Below, one piece after another: positions 39,055 through 57,106 of a DNA stretch of 64,000 bases. A program made the translations under genes and the position numbers. The notes beneath the pieces are model-generated. The model was not told the DNA's origin and searched no databases. It saw nothing but the letters and a program-made list of their open reading frames with translations. Origin of the DNA: Vampirovibrionales bacterium (GTDB lineage Bacteria > Cyanobacteriota > Vampirovibrionia > Vampirovibrionales > Vampirovibrionaceae); contig JAJCZA010000002.1 of assembly GCA_029262635.1 (NCBI GenBank), forward strand, positions 310,001-374,000, in the 5' to 3' direction. Position 1 is the stretch's first letter; each line of letters starts with the position of its first letter.

Positions 39055-39978
39055 ATGTTTCGTTCCGGCTTTGTTGCTATTTTAGGTCGCCCCAATATGG
39101 GGAAATCCACCCTGCTTAATCGTCTGGTTGGTCAGAAGATCGCTATCACCAGTGGTGTGGTGCAGACGACCCGCCATCGGATTAAGGGCGTGGTGCATGT
39201 AAAAGATAAAAATAGCAAGGCCAAGGGACAGATTATTTTTCTCGATACGCCTGGGTTTTCCAAAGCTATGGATAAGCTGGGTGAGTACCTGACCACCGAA
39301 AGTCAAACGGCGCTGACGGAAGCTGACTGTTTTATCATGGTGGTGGATATTACAGAGCCACCGGGCAAGGGAGATGCGTGGATTGCCGAACAGGTTCAGG
39401 CCACGGGCAAATTTGTCCTGTTGGTTCTTAACAAGGTGGATCGCCTGCCGAGCCCGGTTACCCGGCAAGAGCGTCGAGAGGCATATACGGCGTTGTTTCA
39501 GGATTACCCGGCCCTGTCGACCCTTAATATCTCGGCGCAAACTGGAAAGAATCTGGAAAAAATCCCGGAAACCCTCATCCGAAAATTACCGGAAGGCCCG
39601 TCGTATTACGACGAGGACTCTGTAACCGATCAGCGCATCCGGGAAATGACAGCCGAAATCATCCGAGAAAAGGTCCTGCGTAACACTCGGGAAGAAATTC
39701 CCCATAGCGTCGCCATTGGTATTGAAAAATTCATAGAAACGCCGGATAAAACCTTGATTGAGGCGTATTTATATGTGGATCAAAAGTCCCAAAAGGGAAT
39801 GCTTATTGGTAAAAACGGATCCATGATTAAGGCCATTGGTACGCAGGCCAGACAGGCGATTCAGCCGCTGGTGGATACGCCGGTGCATCTGGATTTGCAG
39901 GTTCGGGTGAAAGAAAATTGGCGTAAGGACATTCCGTTTTTAAAGTCACTCGGGCTGGCGCCCCCAAAAGGGAGTTAA
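39055..39978 (+). CDS. era: GTPase Era
   Basis: 307 residues. Era binds the 3' end of 16S rRNA and is needed for 30S assembly. G motifs are AILGRPNMGKSTLLNRL (residues 9-25), DTPGF and LNKVDRL. The C-terminal KH domain follows (QKGMLIGKNGSMIKAIGTQARQAI). It converges with the terminase-like gene, stops only 5 bases apart and no terminator between. Confidence 0.96.
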   Translation: MFRSGFVAILGRPNMGKSTLLNRLVGQKIAITSGVVQTTRHRIKGVVHVKDKNSKAKGQIIFLDTPGFSKAMDKLGEYLTTESQTALTEADCFIMVVDITEPPGKGDAWIAEQVQATGKFVLLVLNKVDRLPSPVTRQERREAYTALFQDYPALSTLNISAQTGKNLEKIPETLIRKLPEGPSYYDEDSVTDQRIREMTAEIIREKVLRNTREEIPHSVAIGIEKFIETPDKTLIEAYLYVDQKSQKGMLIGKNGSMIKAIGTQARQAIQPLVDTPVHLDLQVRVKENWRKDIPFLKSLGLAPPKGS

Positions 39979-39983
39979 AATCT

Positions 39984-41429
39984 TTAATAGCCTGTATAAG
40001 GGTCAATGGGCCGGTATTTTCGTGAAGGTTTGGTGTTGGGGGGCGAAATGCCGCATTTATAAACCACGGCGTATCGAAGGCAGTCCATAACATCTTCGTA
40101 CGGATGTTCCTGGTAGGGAAGCTCGTGGTCGGTGGATGCGTAGCGGTAGCCGCCTTCGAAGGCATCGATGAGATGGCGGCATCGGCGATGAATGAGTAGG
40201 GTGGGAAGTCCTTCGCTTTCTCCGGCCAGCTTCATTCGGATTCGCTCGATGCCGCTGACGATAAGACTTCGCTGGAAAAAGGGATAAACGCCCAAGGTGT
40301 TCAGAATATCGATGCTGGTTTTGTCGCTTTTGTCACTGCGCTGACTGCCCGCCGGGTCGCAAATATCCTCAAATTCAACACCTGGGAAAAGTGATTCGCT
40401 GATCTTCAGAACCCGTTCGCCAAAATGCTTGAGGAGTTCTTGGTAGCCAACCACTTCGTGAAGTATTCGGATACGATCAAAATCATCGAGCTGGGCGAAG
40501 ATGCAGGCAGGAAAGTGGTAGCCAAAATCCCAGCTTCGAAGAATCCGTCGTCCTTCAAGAGGCTCTAAATGATCCCGTTTGTGATTTTCTGAAAACTGGC
40601 TGAATACCCGGTTACTAAGGGATAGATTATAATTAATATCCAATTCACGGGCGATTTCATCCGGGCTCATTCGCCGTGTTTGGGCTTGATACCAGGCTTC
40701 GTCCTTTTCAGGGTGTTTTTTCCAGTGGAGGGTTTCTACCTGAATGGGGCTGTTGAAACGGAGCTGGGCGAATTTGTTGTTTTTACCGTAGGGCGTCCCC
40801 ACCAGAATTCGGGAGGGGCTGGACTGTCCCGAGGAAGCAAAAGCTTGCTCGTCGGAGTCCCAGAAAGGGAATTCGTCCATGAAAATGGCTTTATAGCGTC
40901 CGCCTCGGCCAAATTCTACTGTACTGCTTTCGCCAATAATGGCGTTGCCGTTATTGGGGTTGATGAGTTTCAGCAAGCTGTCGTGCCGGATGGGGGTGAA
41001 TCCCGGTGGACGCATCCATGGCGGGAGCCACCGTAGATTGTACCGGAGTTTTTCAAACAGGGTTGATAGATCGCCTTTTTTGTCGACCAGATCCAGTTTT
41101 CGGGATCCGACAAGAAACTGACTCCCAGAATGAAAGAGCCAGTAATACTGAAACGTCAACAGAATTAGCCAACTGACGCCCATGTCCCGACTTTTTTCAA
41201 TCAGCAGATCATGGCCTTGACCAATCGCTTGGCTAAGTTGACCGACCAACTTTTTTTGGAACGGGTACAGGTAAAACGGCTGATGGGGTTGGGCAAGTCG
41301 AGGGTCAAATGTCCAGCAGAAATGAGCAAACCAAAACAGAATGTCTCGCCGACATTGTTCCATCAGGAGTGCCTGTTTTTCGGGGGACACTTCTGTCTGG
41401 CGTAGCAATTGATAGCGTTGAGAAATCAC
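39984..41429 (-). CDS. Phage terminase large subunit (TerL)-like protein
   Basis: 481 residues. A variant Walker A, IEKSRDMGVSW (79-87), and Walker B with catalytic Glu, YKAIFMDEFPFW (D186, E187), form the ATPase. The coupling motif region is SRILVGTPYG. The C-terminal RNase-H-like nuclease begins RILRSWDFGYHFPAC and continues through EDICDPAGSQ. All key residues look intact, so it is not obviously decayed. TerL powers DNA packaging with portal and small subunit. No portal, capsid, tail or integrase gene is adjacent; four small genes on the same strand precede it. Confidence 0.88.
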   Translation of the reverse strand: MISQRYQLLRQTEVSPEKQALLMEQCRRDILFWFAHFCWTFDPRLAQPHQPFYLYPFQKKLVGQLSQAIGQGHDLLIEKSRDMGVSWLILLTFQYYWLFHSGSQFLVGSRKLDLVDKKGDLSTLFEKLRYNLRWLPPWMRPPGFTPIRHDSLLKLINPNNGNAIIGESSTVEFGRGGRYKAIFMDEFPFWDSDEQAFASSGQSSPSRILVGTPYGKNNKFAQLRFNSPIQVETLHWKKHPEKDEAWYQAQTRRMSPDEIARELDINYNLSLSNRVFSQFSENHKRDHLEPLEGRRILRSWDFGYHFPACIFAQLDDFDRIRILHEVVGYQELLKHFGERVLKISESLFPGVEFEDICDPAGSQRSDKSDKTSIDILNTLGVYPFFQRSLIVSGIERIRMKLAGESEGLPTLLIHRRCRHLIDAFEGGYRYASTDHELPYQEHPYEDVMDCLRYAVVYKCGISPPNTKPSRKYRPIDPYTGY

Positions 41430-41444
41430 AAGCAGAGATACGCG

Positions 41445-42167
41445 TTAGAACAGGGCGAATGCTGACAAAGCATTGCCAAACTGAGTCAACGAGTTTTGAC
41501 GGCGAATCGCCAGGTTGTCTTCCTGAGTGGCCGCTTTTTGGAGTAGGCTGGCACGGGCAATGGCAATGTCGGACGCTCGACGGTTCTCATTCTGAAGCAG
41601 AGATGAGCCGGTTTGAGCGAACCCTTGAGCTTGTGCGGTTAGATCATTCAGAAAACTTTGAAACACGCCAATGCGACGAATCTTGCTATCCTCATCAGAG
41701 AGCGCCAGTTGTTCTCCCAGTAAGTTAGAACGCCTGCGGGCATCGGTTAGTTGCCCTAAACGATTACCTTCTAGTCGAGCGAGTAAATCATTGCCAAACG
41801 TGCTGTTAATGGATCCGCCAAAACGTTTGGCTAAAGTCGAGCGGGCTTTTGAAAAGATCGTATCGGCTTCCTGGTTAATATTCTGGGCTTGAAGCTGGAA
41901 TTGATCATCGCTTCGTCTGCGAATGTCCGCCGCTCGTTGTGCATCTGGTCGTTTTAAGGCATCTGCCAGGTTAGAAATACCTTGCTGGCTTTGGGAAACA
42001 ACGTTTTGGCTGAAATCACCCAATTGGGATTCGTTGACTTGGGTGGTGCCTTCCTGTCGGGTTTTAAACACGTCCCCGGTGGGTGAGCGGAATTCAAACT
42101 GTTGAATGGCCGGGGGAGCGCTGATTTTTATTTTTGGGGTTTTGCTTTTTTTCTTGCCAAAGGACAT
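41445..42167 (-). CDS. Helical, Gln-rich phage-type protein (possible DNA-ejection protein)
   Basis: 240 residues beginning MSFGKKKSKTPK, followed by long Arg/Gln/Ala-rich helices (AQRAADIRRRSDDQFQLQAQNINQEAD, ARASLLQKAATQEDNLAIRRQNSL) and ending in a short hydrophobic LSAFALF. The composition and basic start resemble internal virion/ejection proteins of podoviruses (T7 gp14-like). I infer that from composition and from its place next to TerL. AGGAGG lies 10 bases upstream. It starts 74 bases inside the end of the acetyltransferase gene and ends 15 bases before TerL. Confidence 0.65.
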   Translation of the reverse strand: MSFGKKKSKTPKIKISAPPAIQQFEFRSPTGDVFKTRQEGTTQVNESQLGDFSQNVVSQSQQGISNLADALKRPDAQRAADIRRRSDDQFQLQAQNINQEADTIFSKARSTLAKRFGGSINSTFGNDLLARLEGNRLGQLTDARRRSNLLGEQLALSDEDSKIRRIGVFQSFLNDLTAQAQGFAQTGSSLLQNENRRASDIAIARASLLQKAATQEDNLAIRRQNSLTQFGNALSAFALF

Positions 42168-42693
42168 GGGTCATTTTCCTCCTGATGGTTTGCTGATAAT
42201 CGTGGGCGAACAAAGAATAAACAAGCGTATCTTGCGAGACACCGTTAAATTGGGTGTCGTTTTTAAAATGGGCTTCTTTTTTAAATCCGAATCGAAGGCA
42301 AAAACCTTTGGCACCCAGGTTATTACCCTGGAACTCCGCCTTGACCTTCAGGACATTCAACTCTTGGAAGGCTGTGTTTAAAGCGGAAAGCACAGTGAGA
42401 ATAAGAGCCGGGTGCCGCCGTATGTTTGGGTGGCTGACACCGTGCAGGTACGCATGGCGTCCCGGAATAACATCATCCAGTGAGGCACCGATCAGGCATT
42501 GACCTTGAAGCGTTCGAGCAACCCAAAGGTAGGGCAAAGTGGACTGAAGGTTTTGGACCATACTCTCTGGCGCTGTTTTCGGGGAAAAATCATCCATAAT
42601 GCTTGAGGCAAAGGGTGTAACCAATGCGACTAGCTTCTTTCTTACAGCATTAAATTGTGCTGGACTTTTAATGCGTTCAATGCTCAGAATCAT
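42094..42693 (-). CDS. GNAT-like acetyltransferase in the terminase module
   Basis: 199 residues from ATG 42693 (GGAAG 7 bases upstream); a longer frame to 42759 lies inside the previous gene. GNAT-type features are a central strand HAYLHGVSHPNIRR and, near the C-terminus, VKAEFQGNNLGAKGFCLRFGFKKEA, which resembles the acetyl-CoA-binding/last-strand region. GNAT-fold proteins occur in some phage virion modules, so it may be structural here instead of an enzyme. Translationally overlapped at both ends. Confidence 0.7.
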   Translation of the reverse strand: MILSIERIKSPAQFNAVRKKLVALVTPFASSIMDDFSPKTAPESMVQNLQSTLPYLWVARTLQGQCLIGASLDDVIPGRHAYLHGVSHPNIRRHPALILTVLSALNTAFQELNVLKVKAEFQGNNLGAKGFCLRFGFKKEAHFKNDTQFNGVSQDTLVYSLFAHDYQQTIRRKMTHVLWQEKKQNPKNKNQRSPGHSTV

Positions 42694-42976
42694 GGGTGTT
42701 CTTCCGGTTAGATTTTGGCGTAATAAGACTCTGTATTTCTTTGAGTAGCTCGTCATCACTAAATTGGCTTAGAGCTTTCGGGGTTGGGCGTTTCTTTGTA
42801 CCGGTTTCCGAATGGCTTTCCGGCTTAACTCGCTTGAGCATCTGCTCTACGGCCCAGATTCGATCCCGAAGCTGTTCTGAGTTTAAGGCGTCGTCAATGA
42901 CCTCTATAATTCGGTGGAATCGTTTATAGAAGGCTTCCATGAGCTTTTTTAGTGCATTTTTAGGGACGCTATCCAT
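42677..42976 (-). CDS. Small helical protein, candidate small terminase subunit
   Basis: 99 residues from ATG 42976, preceded by AAAAAGGGAG. All-helical and charged (ALKKLMEAFYKRFHRIIEVIDD, LRDRIWAVEQMLKRV), with a C-terminal LSQFSDDELLKEIQSLI. I recognise no family. Its position before TerL, with helical oligomer-like character, would fit a TerS, but no HTH is obvious. It overlaps the zinc-ribbon gene by 8 bases. Confidence 0.6.
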   Translation of the reverse strand: MDSVPKNALKKLMEAFYKRFHRIIEVIDDALNSEQLRDRIWAVEQMLKRVKPESHSETGTKKRPTPKALSQFSDDELLKEIQSLITPKSNRKNTHDSEH

Positions 42977-43328
42977 GGGTCGAACTCCCTTTTTCCAGAT
43001 TCGCAAGTCGACTTAAGTAAGGGATGGTTTTTTCTGCCTCCCGACTGATTTTTTTTGAATAGTCACTGGCGAACACATGCCCTCGTGTCGATAGCGTTGT
43101 GCTGGCTACTCGGGTTCCCTGAGCCCATAGATCGTAGGAAATAGCTTTTGTTATGTTTTCCGGGAGATCTTTCCGGTAAAAATATTTATACTTGCAACGC
43201 TTGCACCTTTTTTTCATCATAAACGTTATGGTGCTCGCTTCTGAGGAACTTGATGTGTTTGGAGTACTTAAAATACGGGTTTCCAGTGTTTTAAAAAAAC
43301 GGCTATCGCAGTTCAGGCAACGGCACAT
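42969..43328 (-). CDS. Zinc-ribbon regulator-like protein
   Basis: 119 residues. Two CxxC knuckles, C4-C7 (MCRCLNCDSRF) and C42-C45 (KKRCKRCKYKYF), separated by about 35 residues. They resemble the zinc ribbons of NrdR and of phage Ogr/Delta activators. The C-terminal half is basic and helical. It is the first gene of the five-gene terminase unit, so it could be its regulator. No ribosome site is obvious. Confidence 0.6.
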   Translation of the reverse strand: MCRCLNCDSRFFKTLETRILSTPNTSSSSEASTITFMMKKRCKRCKYKYFYRKDLPENITKAISYDLWAQGTRVASTTLSTRGHVFASDYSKKISREAEKTIPYLSRLANLEKGSSTHG

Positions 43329-43539: not shown

Positions 43540-43600
43540 CTCATTTTGAATTATTTTGAACTTCGATAACAGAAACCGAAAGAGGCCTAAGAACAAGATT

Positions 43601-43873
43601 ATGGCGTTGAATCAACAAGAAAAGCAACAGATTGTTAAAACCCATGGACGGCATGAAAAAGACACGGGCAGTCCAGAGGTTCAGATTTCGACATTGACCA
43701 AGCGAATCGCTGATCTGACCGAACATCTGAAAACCAATAAAAAAGATTATTCTTGCCAACGTGGCTTGATGACCATGGTTAGTAAGCGCCGTCGATTGCA
43801 GAACTACTTTAAAGCCAATTGCACGCCGGAAGAATACCAAAAGTTGATTAAAAAGCTCAAGCTTCGAAAATAG
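43601..43873 (+). CDS. rpsO: 30S ribosomal protein S15
   Basis: 90 residues from ATG 43601; a longer frame to 43556 runs into the promoter leader. Signatures: HGRHEKDTGSPEVQI, LTKRIADLTEHLKTNKKDY and RRRLQNYFK. S15 binds 16S rRNA early in 30S assembly. It is followed by pnp, the widely conserved rpsO-pnp order. Confidence 0.97.
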   Translation: MALNQQEKQQIVKTHGRHEKDTGSPEVQISTLTKRIADLTEHLKTNKKDYSCQRGLMTMVSKRRRLQNYFKANCTPEEYQKLIKKLKLRK

Positions 43874-43918: not shown

Positions 43919-44016
43919 TAATAGACCATTGATGCAGATAGAAAAAGCCGTACACAGCGTGTATGAGCCGTGATGACAGTGACATTCAGATAAATAGATA
44001 GAAAGAAGATTAATTG

Positions 44017-46314
44017 ATGCCTACAACAGAACCCCAAGTTTCGACCAGCCCCATTGGGAAAGTGGAAACCATTTCATTCAAGGTCGGCGAAGCCGACGTT
44101 AGTTTCGAGTATGGGCGAGTGGCCCGATCCGCAAGCGCAGCGGTTGTTGTCAAGTGTGAGGACACCATGATTATGGTGACTGCCACCGGCAGTAGCAAGC
44201 CTCGTCCCGGCATCGATTTTTTCCCGCTTCTCTGTGACTTTGAGGAGAAAATGTATTCGGTGGGCAAGATTCCGGGTGGTTTCATTAAGCGAGAAGGCCG
44301 CCCTTCGGAGAAGGCTGTGTTGACCTGCCGATTGATGGATCGTCCTATTCGTCCCCTATGGCCTGAAGGCTATCGGAATGATGTTCAGGTGGTGGCCGCT
44401 CCATGGAGCGTAGATGGGGTGAATCAACCTGATGTTCTTTCTATTCTCGGTGCGTCTATGGCGTTAGAACTTTCAGGACTGCCATTTAACGGTCCTTTGG
44501 GTGCGGTTCGTGTTGGCTTGATTGAAGGCCAGTTTATCGCTAACCCCACGTTCCAAGAATCTGCAGAAAGTGTTTTGGATTTAGTTGTTGCCGGTACTGA
44601 AGATTCCATCATGATGGTGGAAGCAGGCGCTAATTTTGTTTCTGAGGCTGTTCTACTGGACGCTTTGGCCTTTGCCCACGAAGAGATTCGCAAGCAGATT
44701 GTTGTTATCAAACAGTTTAGTCAGCAATGCGGCATTCCGGCTAGAGAAGCGTTTGTAAACAAACTGGATTTAACGCCATTAACAACGTTTGTGACGAATC
44801 TGGTTGAGTCGGATGTGGTTGAGGCTTATCATAATTTCGATCGAGATCAGCGAAAAGAAAAGTTGGAAGGGGCGAAAGAAAAACTAACCGAAGCCTTTGC
44901 CGCTTTATCCGATGATCATGAGATTAAAGTCCTGTTGAAAGGCGAAGTGCTCGATCACGTCGGGGCGACCTTTAAGAGCGTGGAAAAACGTATCATGCGA
45001 ACCATGATTCTGGATGAAGGCGTGCGAGCTGATGGTCGTAAGACGGATGAGATTCGTCCTATCGCTTGTGAAGTAGGTGTGGTTCCCCGTGTACACGGTT
45101 CGGCGCTCTTTACTCGGGGTAATACACAGGTTCTTTCGATTGCGACACTGGGTGCGCCTGGCGATAAGCAAAAGCTGGATGGTGTGGACCCAGAGACTGA
45201 AAAACGCTTTATGCACCATTATGCTTTCCCCGGTTATTCAGTTGGAGAAGTGAAGCCGATGAGAGGCGCGGGTCGTCGAGAAATTGGCCACGGTGCGCTG
45301 GCGGGACGAGCCAATGAATGGGCATTGCCTGACAAAGAGGCTTTCCCGTACTCGCTTCGCGTGAATTCTGAAATTCTGGAGTCCAACGGCTCTACAAGTA
45401 TGGCGTCCACTTGCGGAACTTCCATGGCCTTGATGGATGCCGGTGTTCCGGTAACGACCCCCATTAGCGGAATCGCTATGGGCTTGATTAAAGAAGGTGA
45501 GAAATACTCGGTTCTGTCGGATATTCAGGGGCTGGAAGACTTCCTGGGCGACATGGACTTCAAGGTTACCGGAAACAGCGAAGGTGTGACCGCCCTACAG
45601 ATGGATATTAAGATTCAGGGTATTTCCATCGAAATTATGAAAGAAGCATTAGAGCAAGCCCGTTTGGGTCGGCTTCATATTCTGGGTAAGATGGCAGAGG
45701 CCATTCAAGAGCCTCGGGATCACATGTCGCCTTATGCGCCACGTATCTTGACCCATCGCATCGACAAAGAGCAGATTGGTACGGTTATTGGCCCTGGCGG
45801 TAAAACCATTCGGGGCATTATTGAGCAAACCGATGCCAGCATTGATATTGAGGATGACGGCCTGATCACCATTACCTCTCAAGGTGAAGGTGGCGAACGG
45901 GCGTTGGAAATCATCATTGAGATGACTCGAAAAATTGAGGCCGGTACCATGATGAAAGGCAAAGTGGTTCGGATTATCCCCATTGGCGCTTTTGTTGAAT
46001 TGGCACCGGGCAAGGATGGTATGGTTCATATCTCTCAAATCGCCAACGAACGGGTGAATAACATTGAGGACTTCCTCTCCGTGGGTGACGAAGTCTGTGT
46101 GAAAGTCCGTGAAGTGGACGATATGGGCCGAATTAACCTGACCATTAAAGGGGCCACGGACGAAGAACGTGCCGGGTTGGGCTTTGATCCCCTACCCGCT
46201 GCCCCCCCGAGAGCGGAAGGAGACCGAGGACAGGATCGTGAACGCTCTCGACCTGGCGGTGGCCGACCCCGTCACGGTGGTGGTGATCGAGATAGAGGAC
46301 CCCGTCGCGATTAA
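44017..46314 (+). CDS. pnp: Polyribonucleotide nucleotidyltransferase (PNPase)
   Basis: 765 residues; phosphorolytic 3'-5' exoribonuclease of the RNA degradosome. Two RNase-PH domains: the first includes FLPLL-type LCDFEEKMYSVGKIPGGF and RLMDRPIRPLWPEGY; the second has RADGRKTDEIRPI and ILESNGSTSMASTCG. Then KH (IGTVIGPGGKTIRGI) and S1 (GKVVRIIPIGAFVELAPGKDGMVHISQI) domains. The tail is Arg/Gly/Asp-rich (ERSRPGGGRPRHGGGDRD), which may bind RNA or partners. The start is ATG 44017 rather than the adjoining TTG. Confidence 0.97.
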   Translation: MPTTEPQVSTSPIGKVETISFKVGEADVSFEYGRVARSASAAVVVKCEDTMIMVTATGSSKPRPGIDFFPLLCDFEEKMYSVGKIPGGFIKREGRPSEKAVLTCRLMDRPIRPLWPEGYRNDVQVVAAPWSVDGVNQPDVLSILGASMALELSGLPFNGPLGAVRVGLIEGQFIANPTFQESAESVLDLVVAGTEDSIMMVEAGANFVSEAVLLDALAFAHEEIRKQIVVIKQFSQQCGIPAREAFVNKLDLTPLTTFVTNLVESDVVEAYHNFDRDQRKEKLEGAKEKLTEAFAALSDDHEIKVLLKGEVLDHVGATFKSVEKRIMRTMILDEGVRADGRKTDEIRPIACEVGVVPRVHGSALFTRGNTQVLSIATLGAPGDKQKLDGVDPETEKRFMHHYAFPGYSVGEVKPMRGAGRREIGHGALAGRANEWALPDKEAFPYSLRVNSEILESNGSTSMASTCGTSMALMDAGVPVTTPISGIAMGLIKEGEKYSVLSDIQGLEDFLGDMDFKVTGNSEGVTALQMDIKIQGISIEIMKEALEQARLGRLHILGKMAEAIQEPRDHMSPYAPRILTHRIDKEQIGTVIGPGGKTIRGIIEQTDASIDIEDDGLITITSQGEGGERALEIIIEMTRKIEAGTMMKGKVVRIIPIGAFVELAPGKDGMVHISQIANERVNNIEDFLSVGDEVCVKVREVDDMGRINLTIKGATDEERAGLGFDPLPAAPPRAEGDRGQDRERSRPGGGRPRHGGGDRDRGPRRD

Positions 46315-55087: not shown

Positions 55088-55654
55088 TTAAGCTTTAATT
55101 TCTATTTCTTCGATTTCAATGGTCTCAACGCCATCAGCGTGAGGTGCTTTTTCAGGAGTGACGACTTCAGGGTTTTGCTTTTGATCGCCGCGGTAATGAA
55201 GATCACCCTGGAATTGCTCGCCAATGAAACTGCCGTTTTGCATGAACATGCTCATCATCGTGGTAAATAGCTGCATAACAGGTGTGAGAACAGCTTGCAG
55301 GAGTGCGGCTGTGCTTTGCCCTTGAGGCGGCGAGTTAATGGGACCGGCTGTGTTAAACCCCGCCCCTGGCGTTGGAAAACTGATATTAAAGCTGGGTAGC
55401 GTTGGAGCGGCTGTCGGTTGACTTTGAAAAATCGGTTGACTAAACCCGCTAGAAGCAGGTGTTCCGGTGAACCTATTTGGCGGCTGAGGAGTAGATCCTG
55501 TCATGTTATTAGAGGTATTGGTCAAGCTAAACCCACCGGTGTGAGAGGCGTATTCCGTTGACATGCCAGGACCGTGCAAATAGGTAGTTGCCCCAAAGCC
55601 GGGTGAAGGTTGAAACTGGCTGCCTAAGCCTTGACCGAATCCATTAATCGACAT
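55088..55654 (-). CDS. FG/Pro/Ser-rich low-complexity protein
   Basis: 188 residues from ATG 55654, preceded by GGGGAGA 8 bases upstream; a longer frame to 55726 has no ribosome site. The first ~120 residues are Gly, Phe, Ser, Pro and Thr-rich, with scattered FG dipeptides (GFGQGLGSQF, PSPGFGATTY) resembling FG-repeat or adhesive proteins. Then a hydrophobic Met-rich helix (LLQAVLTPVMQLFTTMMSMF) and an acidic C-terminus (VETIEIEEIEIKA). No signal peptide. Family unknown; possibly phase-separating or membrane-associated. Confidence 0.65.
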   Translation of the reverse strand: MSINGFGQGLGSQFQPSPGFGATTYLHGPGMSTEYASHTGGFSLTNTSNNMTGSTPQPPNRFTGTPASSGFSQPIFQSQPTAAPTLPSFNISFPTPGAGFNTAGPINSPPQGQSTAALLQAVLTPVMQLFTTMMSMFMQNGSFIGEQFQGDLHYRGDQKQNPEVVTPEKAPHADGVETIEIEEIEIKA

Positions 55655-55886
55655 AATATAAATCTCCCCAAAATCTTTTCTAATGGTGTGGTGTTTTTTG
55701 ATGCGTTGATAAAACGTTCTAGGCACCCGCTCTATTCAGGACAGACACTTATATGAGTGAGAGAACGATGGTGTTTTAACTGTGATACCCGGTGACTTTA
55801 CAACAAAATAAAAACAATCATTCTTTGACAATTGCGCTTTTTCTCAAAATTTTATCCTGAATCATTCCCTTGGATAGCGAGGCGAT

Positions 55887-55952
55887 ATGGAAACGATATT
55901 TAAATGGGTAGAAAAGCTTCAGAAAGAGGAAGACGGAATGATTTTGGATTAA
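55887..55952 (+). CDS. Candidate 21-residue micro-protein
   Basis: [21 protein letters not shown], an amphipathic charged helix. GCGAGG lies about 5 bases before the ATG and a TTGACA occurs at 55825-55830, although no good -10 is spaced from it. The stop overlaps the end of the converging aminotransferase gene. Could be chance. Confidence 0.3.
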
Positions 55953-57106
55953 ACACTCACGGCTCCAGTTTTAAAAGTGGCGGCCAAGCTCTTTTCGATG
56001 GCTTGGACGGTCATGTTAATCTCTGTATCGCTTAGTTCAGGAAACATTGGCAGGGAAAGAACTTGATGGCGGAGCTGTTCACAGACGGGGTAATCACTGG
56101 CCGGGTAATTCAGGTTTTGGTACGTTTTTTGGTCATAAAGTGGAATGGGGTAGTAGAGCATGCTCATGACCCCTTCTTCTCGAAGCGCCTCCTGAAAAGC
56201 GTTTCGTTGAGTTGAATCGGTGGTGTTTAGTCGCAGGGTGTACTGATGGAACACGTGGGTTCGGTCTTCAGGAATGATAGGCGTTGTCAGGAGATCCGAA
56301 AAACGGGCCAGCTTTTCCGTATATTGACGGGCGATGTGCTGACGCGTTTTGTTAAATTCGTCTAAGTGGGGTAGTTTAATGCGAAGAATGGCTGCCTGTA
56401 TCTCGTCAAGACGGCTGTTCAGGCCAGATTCTTCATGGTAATACCGGGTATGGCTGCCGTGAACCCGTAACATACGAAGGCGGTCGGCTAAGGTGTCGTC
56501 ACTGGTGGTCAGTAAACCACCATCGCCGAAGGCCCCCAGATTTTTGGTAGGAAAAAAGCTAAAACAGCCAATATCACCGAAACTGCCAACTTTTTGACCT
56601 TTGTATTCCGCACCAATGGCTTGAGCGCAATCCTCAATGACAAACAAATTGTGCTTTTTCGAAAGAGCCCGGATTTCATCCATGTTAGCGGGTAGGCCAT
56701 ACAGGTGAACTGGCAAAATGGCTTTGGTCTTTGGGGTTATTCTTGCCTCAATGGCGCTGACATCCAGATTAAACGTATCTGGATCAACATCAACAAATAC
56801 GGGTGTGGCGTTGGCCTGAACAATGGCTTCTGAGGTAGCGATATAGGTGAAGGGGGTGGTGATGACCTCATCGCCAGCACTTATTTTTAGGGCTTTCATA
56901 GCCAACAAAAGGGCGTCGGTTCCGCTAGCACAGCCAATAGCATGTTTTACCCCTAAATACTGGGCGGCTTCTTTTTCAAAAGCGGTGACGTTGGGGCCGA
57001 GAATATAATAGCCGGATGCGGCAACGTCGGTCAGTGCCTTACTTATTTCACTTTCAAATCGGGTGTATTGCCGCGTCAGTTCAAAAATTGGAATCAATGT
57101 GCCCAA
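55949..57106 (-). CDS. DegT/DnrJ/EryC1-family sugar aminotransferase
   Basis: 385 residues. PLP enzyme that aminates keto-sugar nucleotides. Signatures: [64 protein letters not shown], and the PLP lysine K188 in [17 protein letters not shown]. Closest in feel to WbpE/WlbC enzymes for diacetamido sugars. The LbH acetyltransferase at 58714, on the same strand, would be the next step; the subtilase gene on the opposite strand lies between. Confidence 0.93.

Follow-up and report, generated by a model that had tools for sequence, protein, structure and literature searches.

Why should a bacterial chromosome keep an intact phage terminase among its housekeeping genes, with neither capsid nor portal beside it? 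The locus that raises this question lies at 39984-43328 of a 64,000-nucleotide (nt) window (the whole stretch that was analysed, positions 310,001 to 374,000 of contig JAJCZA010000002.1 of a Vampirovibrionales bacterium, GCA_029262635.1; in our labels G000:C2:310001-374000, G000 being the genome of the window). It consists of five tightly packed minus-strand open reading frames (ORFs) between era and rpsO-pnp, encoding a zinc-ribbon protein, a small terminase (TerS) candidate, an acetyltransferase-like (GNAT) protein, a basic glutamine-rich (Q-rich) protein and the large terminase (TerL). The best reading, and one that we consider likely, is that this module belongs to a vertically inherited, dispersed, podovirus-derived system resembling a gene transfer agent (GTA), the remaining virion genes of which lie elsewhere on the same contig.

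Two loci inherited together

The first-pass annotation described the module as lacking capsid and portal genes, which holds at the locus but not for the genome. A coat gene query from prophage L033 found one match in G000, at C2:491393-492211, and a portal query likewise found one, just upstream of the coat gene; portal, capsid and tail genes all fall in a single structural cluster (G000:C2:488929-497480), ~136 kb from the terminase locus, in which no terminase ORF was recognised. The cluster reads portal (SU10 type), 195-aa scaffold candidate, coat (P22 type), 83 aa, SU10 adaptor, 514-aa tail protein, 470-aa fibre, 118 aa, 66 aa, M15 endolysin and 84 aa, with Pfam families PF23899, PF11651, PF24175 and PF08291 (for portal and coat, the profiles come from the copies in G007 and G001). 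Its upstream neighbours are the same genes in 5/5 Vampirovibrio-group genomes, and lepA (named from the annotation of MW495066, a sequence discussed below) follows in G001, G004, G007 and MW495066. The fibre proteins differ between genera.

Comparisons covered a family set of 10 genomes (G000-G009), an order set of 18 and a wider class set of 40. The TerL locus is present in eight of the ten family genomes and the coat gene (MCP) in the same eight, including Vampirovibrio chlorellavorus NCIMB 11383 (G004); among these, TerL is partial at a contig end in G009 and lies on two contig ends in G008. The two loci are apart in all eight, on one contig in G000 and in G001 (~42 kb, with leuA, nusA, infB and rbfA, named by eye from their sequences, between them) and on different contigs elsewhere. 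The set occupies four places on two contigs in G006, where the GNAT gene is ~91 kb from TerL and the Q-rich gene on another contig; the Q-rich gene of G008 is also on a separate contig from TerL. Both genomes have retained their displaced genes, a point in favour of the GTA-like reading. The order TerS candidate-GNAT-Q-rich-TerL recurs in G000, G001, G003, G004 and G007, and partially in G006, G008 and G009, which speaks against chance. Across the whole order, prophages included, TerL was matched in 14/18 genomes and MCP in 10/18, while beyond it 1/40 class genomes gave a weak TerL match. If the GTA-like reading is right, splitting of the gene set is still going on between genera.

Trees of the host PNPase and of TerL both hold {G000,(G001,G003)}, and those of PNPase, TerL and portal+MCP+tail all hold {G001,G003} and {G004,G007,G009}; there is no well-supported conflict, with several forks open, some rows partial and outgroups long. 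Synonymous divergence (dS) between G004 and G007 is alike for particle genes (0.39-0.99) and flanking host genes (0.50-0.79). Because the trees are concordant, dS is host-like, the flanks are syntenic and both loci occur in 8/10 family genomes, we conclude that the set has descended vertically within the cellular genome. The dN/dS ratio (omega; close pairs only, pairs below 60% protein identity being omitted and pairs with saturated dS having no omega) is 0.005-0.30 over all particle genes and 0.03-0.15 in host genes, with values of 0.005-0.05 for MCP, 0.07-0.10 for the portal, 0.07-0.19 for TerL, 0.07-0.17 for the TerS candidate and 0.06 for the Q-rich gene. TerL is thus under purifying selection, and neither internal stops nor relaxed selection, which would have counted against the first-pass interpretation, was seen in relatives.

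GTAs are defined as tailed-phage-derived, vertically transmitted and packaging at best part of their own genes, in particles that come from a small share of cells and deliver mostly host DNA (PMC9662315). Tailed-phage-derived capsid, portal and terminase genes are present here and are transmitted vertically within the cellular genome. An autonomous prophage would be a single continuous element that brings genes for integration or replication; this set lies at two or more loci. Of the possibilities that the first-pass annotation had raised, it is the dispersed GTA-like one that is supported by the distant virion genes, the pairing in 8/10 genomes and the purifying selection.

Terminase locus

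The features of the locus and its flanks, which bear out the earlier account of five coupled genes between housekeeping neighbours, are as follows.

39055..39978, plus strand: era, host flank (Pfam, GTPase + KH_2)
39984..41429, minus strand: large terminase TerL, 481 aa (PHROG terminase profiles, intact ATPase and nuclease motifs)
41445..42167, minus strand: Q-rich basic protein, 240 aa, probable internal-virion or DNA-ejection protein
42094..42759, minus strand: GNAT-fold protein, 221 aa (acetyltransferase profiles)
42677..43006, minus strand: small helical protein, 109 aa, probable TerS without a recognisable DNA-binding domain
42969..43328, minus strand: zinc-ribbon protein, 119 aa, CxxC-CxxC (motif)
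43556..43873, plus strand: rpsO, host flank (Pfam)
44014-46314: pnp, host flank after rpsO (Pfam)

The first four genes, in the direction of reading, overlap by 38, 83 and 74 nt, TerL begins 15 nt behind the fourth, and the GC content of the module equals that of its surroundings. A scan found 3 promoter-like sites (4.9 in shuffles) and 7 terminator-like sites (4.7 in shuffles), and was not used as evidence.

TerL is intact, as it had looked at first: PHROG terminase profiles match it at 5e-18 and 1e-17, its family profile matches T4 gp17 at 5e-4, and the motifs EKSRDMG and DEF and Asp 301, 358, 446 and 449 are kept in 9/9 aligned homologues. We take these to be Walker A, Walker B and the nuclease residues, respectively.

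The 109-aa protein is a probable TerS by its position beside TerL, mainly because it stays at the TerL locus even where the GNAT and Q-rich genes have left: in G006 it remains there together with the zinc ribbon. Small terminases are partners of TerL with an oligomeric helical core and, as a rule, a DNA-binding domain. The structure model of the 109-aa protein is helical but of low confidence (pLDDT 67), it resembles none of the ORFs that directly precede TerL in the related prophages L030 (in G008) and L033 (in G001), and no relatives were confirmed in the IMG/VR scans. The zinc-ribbon protein may be a regulator or a packaging accessory; its gene is present in G000, G004, G006, G007, G008 and G009 and adjoins the Q-rich gene in G014, and was not found in the modules of G001 and G003.

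GNAT and Q-rich proteins

The GNAT-like assignment of the first reading is confirmed by a profile match to solved PDB acetyltransferases (E 5e-11), and PHROG acetyltransferases were matched in 8 and 7 of 9 members. What we take to be the acetyl-CoA loop of GNAT looks eroded in this family's copies, while the copy in L036 (a cluster of G005, at G005:C4:103979-126142) still reads RQGVG; this erosion makes a structural role for the protein plausible.

In L036, in L275 (a cluster of G002) and on two IMG/VR contigs, L161 and L215, the tail gene has behind it a GNAT gene and then a protein of 208 to 258 aa. Between tail and GNAT genes there are ORFs of 533 and 79 aa in L275 and one of 136 aa in L036. 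The Q-rich protein matches the protein behind GNAT in these two prophage-like clusters and two IMG/VR contigs (profile probability 95.8%, E 7.5e-9). Because related clusters hold both genes behind the tail gene, the Q-rich one by homology, we regard GNAT and Q-rich as virion genes that are now placed with the terminase and that probably encode internal or ejection proteins. T7 gp13 and gp14 were considered as direct homologues, but profile comparison gave no similarity and only the gene position is alike. The model of the Q-rich protein is mostly helical and of low confidence (pLDDT 62); it matched no viral structure below E 0.001 and was not used, and no relatives of the protein were confirmed in the IMG/VR scans.

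Proposed mechanism and alternatives

In the GTA-like reading, a domesticated short-tailed phage would survive in two halves, the terminase module serving packaging and ejection and the structural cluster supplying the shell. Both loci would be expressed in a subset of cells; the coat protein would assemble on the portal into a procapsid, TerL and the TerS candidate would fill the head with whatever chromosomal DNA is available, GNAT and Q-rich would enter as internal or ejection proteins, and adaptor, tail and fibre would complete the short tail. The M15 endolysin would then lyse the producer cell, and host DNA would be delivered to recipients. Particle formation, packaging of host DNA and delivery are here predicted from gene content, by which this Vampirovibrio-related family probably makes gene-transfer particles. 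Related IMG/VR contigs reach at most about 51 kb, from which we infer the head capacity; set against this, the ~42 kb spacing in G001 alone would allow co-packaging of both loci.

Several observations weigh against such a system. It is known from its genes, and neither particles nor packaged DNA nor transfer have been observed. Two family genomes lack this set and have a more distant cluster in its place (L275 in G002 and L036 in G005). In another family (f3), G011 has TerL, portal and Q-rich genes and no detectable coat gene, and G013 the Q-rich gene only, so that the set appears incomplete; perhaps this is loss in progress, or the coat is too distant to see. GNAT, at an omega of 0.30, is the loosest of the particle genes, and the 109-aa protein has no sequence match of note to known TerS, to families or to PDB. 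The bias toward cheap amino acids of alphaproteobacterial GTAs was not found: portal and MCP do not differ from viral homologues, and the lower amino-acid cost of TerL (p 0.011) fades after GC matching (p 0.115). Finally, G000 also holds terminases of other phages.

These other terminases are two full phrog_38 copies (G000:C5:338-2023 and C5 ~55184-56869) and a fragment (C27:851-1378; L411-L413), all presumably T7-type; tail-fibre genes near two of the three loci point to other, unrelated prophage elements. As a further observation on f3, the Q-rich proteins of G011 and G013 (L268/L269, L277) are 78-80% identical, the gene surviving there alone or apart.

The capsid might have been domesticated for another job, carrying DNA or protein cargo for killing competitors or for algal predation and not for exchange among kin. 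V. chlorellavorus lives by predation (PMC13157829), and fibre variation between genera is expected of a target-binding part; the purifying selection on TerL, TerS candidate and portal nevertheless argues for DNA loading, and neither the terminase nor the structural locus holds a recognisable toxin-like gene, so that we hold this alternative to be unlikely. A purely DNA-translocating unit, which the first-pass annotation had also entertained, is likewise unlikely, since the capsid genes co-occur and co-evolve with the module. Scattered old prophage remains that do not work together could account for the partial sets in some f3 genomes and would have a counterpart in the related prophages of G001 and G008, but they are hard to reconcile with the presence of both loci in the same 8/10 genomes, the lack of stops, an omega far below 1, host-like dS and matching trees, and we think them quite improbable.

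Even less credible is a satellite that borrows the capsid of another phage, another suggestion of the first reading. It would explain a terminase without local capsid genes, and T7-type prophage genes do exist in the same genome; the genome, however, has its own cognate SU10/P22-type capsid cluster, co-inherited with the module, relatives of TerL adjoin relatives of the portal in L030, L033 and L036, and the terminase locus showed no recognisable integrase or replication gene (an integrase was not sought genome-wide). That an assembly error or a recent rearrangement broke up one ordinary prophage, as the co-occurrence of both halves in one genome might suggest, deserves almost no credence, for the halves are separate in 8/8 genomes, two of which have both on one long contig, and housekeeping genes lie between them in G001.

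Probable chromosomal origin of the PhiMa05 sequence

The same structural cluster is carried by GenBank MW495066.1 (L282 + L384), a 273,876-bp 'Microcystis phage MaAM05' whose accession is that used for PhiMa05 in PMC13157829; its MCP is 79% identical to that of G000, 95% to G004 and 99% to G007. The 'jumbo cyanophage' PhiMa05 was presented as a 274-kb lytic phage, whereas the content and spacing of MW495066 match a Vampirovibrio chromosome. The cluster sits between aspS, hppA, tRNA-Arg, pgcA and kimA on one side and lepA, proS, ftsH and glgX on the other, and the first 50 kb hold rpsA, rplU, rpmA, secE-nusG-rplK-rplA, pgi and others. Each of 20/22 genomes examined has a single copy of rplA (the two without are incomplete genomes), including genomes that do not have the structural cluster, and the distance from rplA to MCP is ~172.5 kb in G007 and ~172.4 kb in MW495066, in the same relative orientation. 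Compared with G004 and G007, dS is alike in cluster genes (0.45-1.05) and host genes (0.45-0.90). A TerL profile search of MW495066 returned nothing, against the matches in 14/18 order genomes, and the PhiMa05 authors likewise found no terminase (PMC8093824). By reason of host gene content, rplA-MCP spacing, rplA distribution, like dS and the missing TerL homologue, MW495066 is best read as a piece of the chromosome of a Vampirovibrio holding the structural cluster, and its ribosomal-protein genes as the host's own.

In PMC13157829, these facts are taken to show an integrated jumbo prophage that has ribosomal genes. Our interpretation undercuts this 2026 claim of a virus with six ribosomal-protein genes passed to Vampirovibrio, the 'prophage' being chromosome around a virion cluster, and cautions that bacterial contigs can pass as jumbo phages when they hold such a cluster. 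The short-tail genes of the cluster fail to explain the PhiMa05 particle, which is myovirus-like with a 108-nm head and a 127-nm tail (PMC8093824). The lysate that yielded the PhiMa05 DNA had been passed through a 0.45-um filter and treated with DNase (PMC8093824); either small predator cells or DNA carried in particles could explain the sequence. It is an improbable proposition that an independent Cyanobacteriota GTA lineage, made by splitting a short-tailed phage into two to four chromosomal loci, is active in predatory Vampirovibrio and that the PhiMa05 filtrate was at least partly such packaged chromosomal DNA; if so, packaged DNA has already been sequenced once, unrecognised.

Comparison with known systems

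No described phage in the collection searched is close to this system: the best TerL match is 35.6% over 61%, and the 79% MCP identity is reached only by MW495066, the next best being 39.8%. Related SU10/P22-like short-tailed phages and prophages (L033, L030, L036, L275, L161, L215 and a third IMG/VR contig, L312) have homologous TerL, portal, coat, adaptor and tail genes, several also GNAT and Q-rich. Whenever one contig has both genes, TerL adjoins the portal in these elements, and several of them have further large genes, whereas the family system is split. In L036 (L305) one run of genes comprises TerL, portal, coat, adaptor, tail, GNAT and Q-rich together with a 1651-aa ORF and two fibre genes; this could be a prophage or a cousin that has stayed undispersed. 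As a side observation, TerL in L033, L189/L309, L209, L221 and L312 consists of two ORFs, an ATPase of ~240-250 aa and a nuclease of ~267-281 aa, that touch or overlap (420 nt apart in L221), perhaps a naturally split terminase.

The open literature held nothing relevant on GTAs in Vampirovibrio, Melainabacteria, Vampirovibrionia or Cyanobacteriota (subscription papers and preprints were mostly outside the search), and a GTA-like system is apparently undescribed in Cyanobacteriota. RcGTA, other alphaproteobacterial GTAs and BhGTA of Brachyspira are likewise tailed-phage-derived and vertical and have kept a terminase; dispersal is found in RcGTA and is considered likely for BhGTA (PMC9662315). 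The Vampirovibrio-family system differs from these GTAs in its short-tailed SU10/P22-type virion families, in showing no cost bias and in being known from genes alone. If we are right, a further phage has been domesticated into a gene-transfer particle, in a phylum for which the literature searched held none and in the family of an algal predator, and this lineage can show how a phage is dismantled yet retained.

The nearest published design is FpGTA of Faecalibacterium (PMC12946183), a likeness in described design. FpGTA is podovirus-like, with two operons about 125 kb apart in one strain, much like the two distant loci here, and also has a TerS candidate in which no DNA-binding domain is obvious, an endolysin and genus-wide presence. 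The partition is different: in FpGTA, TerL is grouped with portal, scaffold and capsid, and tail, fibre and lysis genes lie apart, whereas in the Vampirovibrio family, in a different phylum, TerL, the TerS candidate, GNAT and Q-rich are apart from the whole virion cluster in 8/8 genomes.

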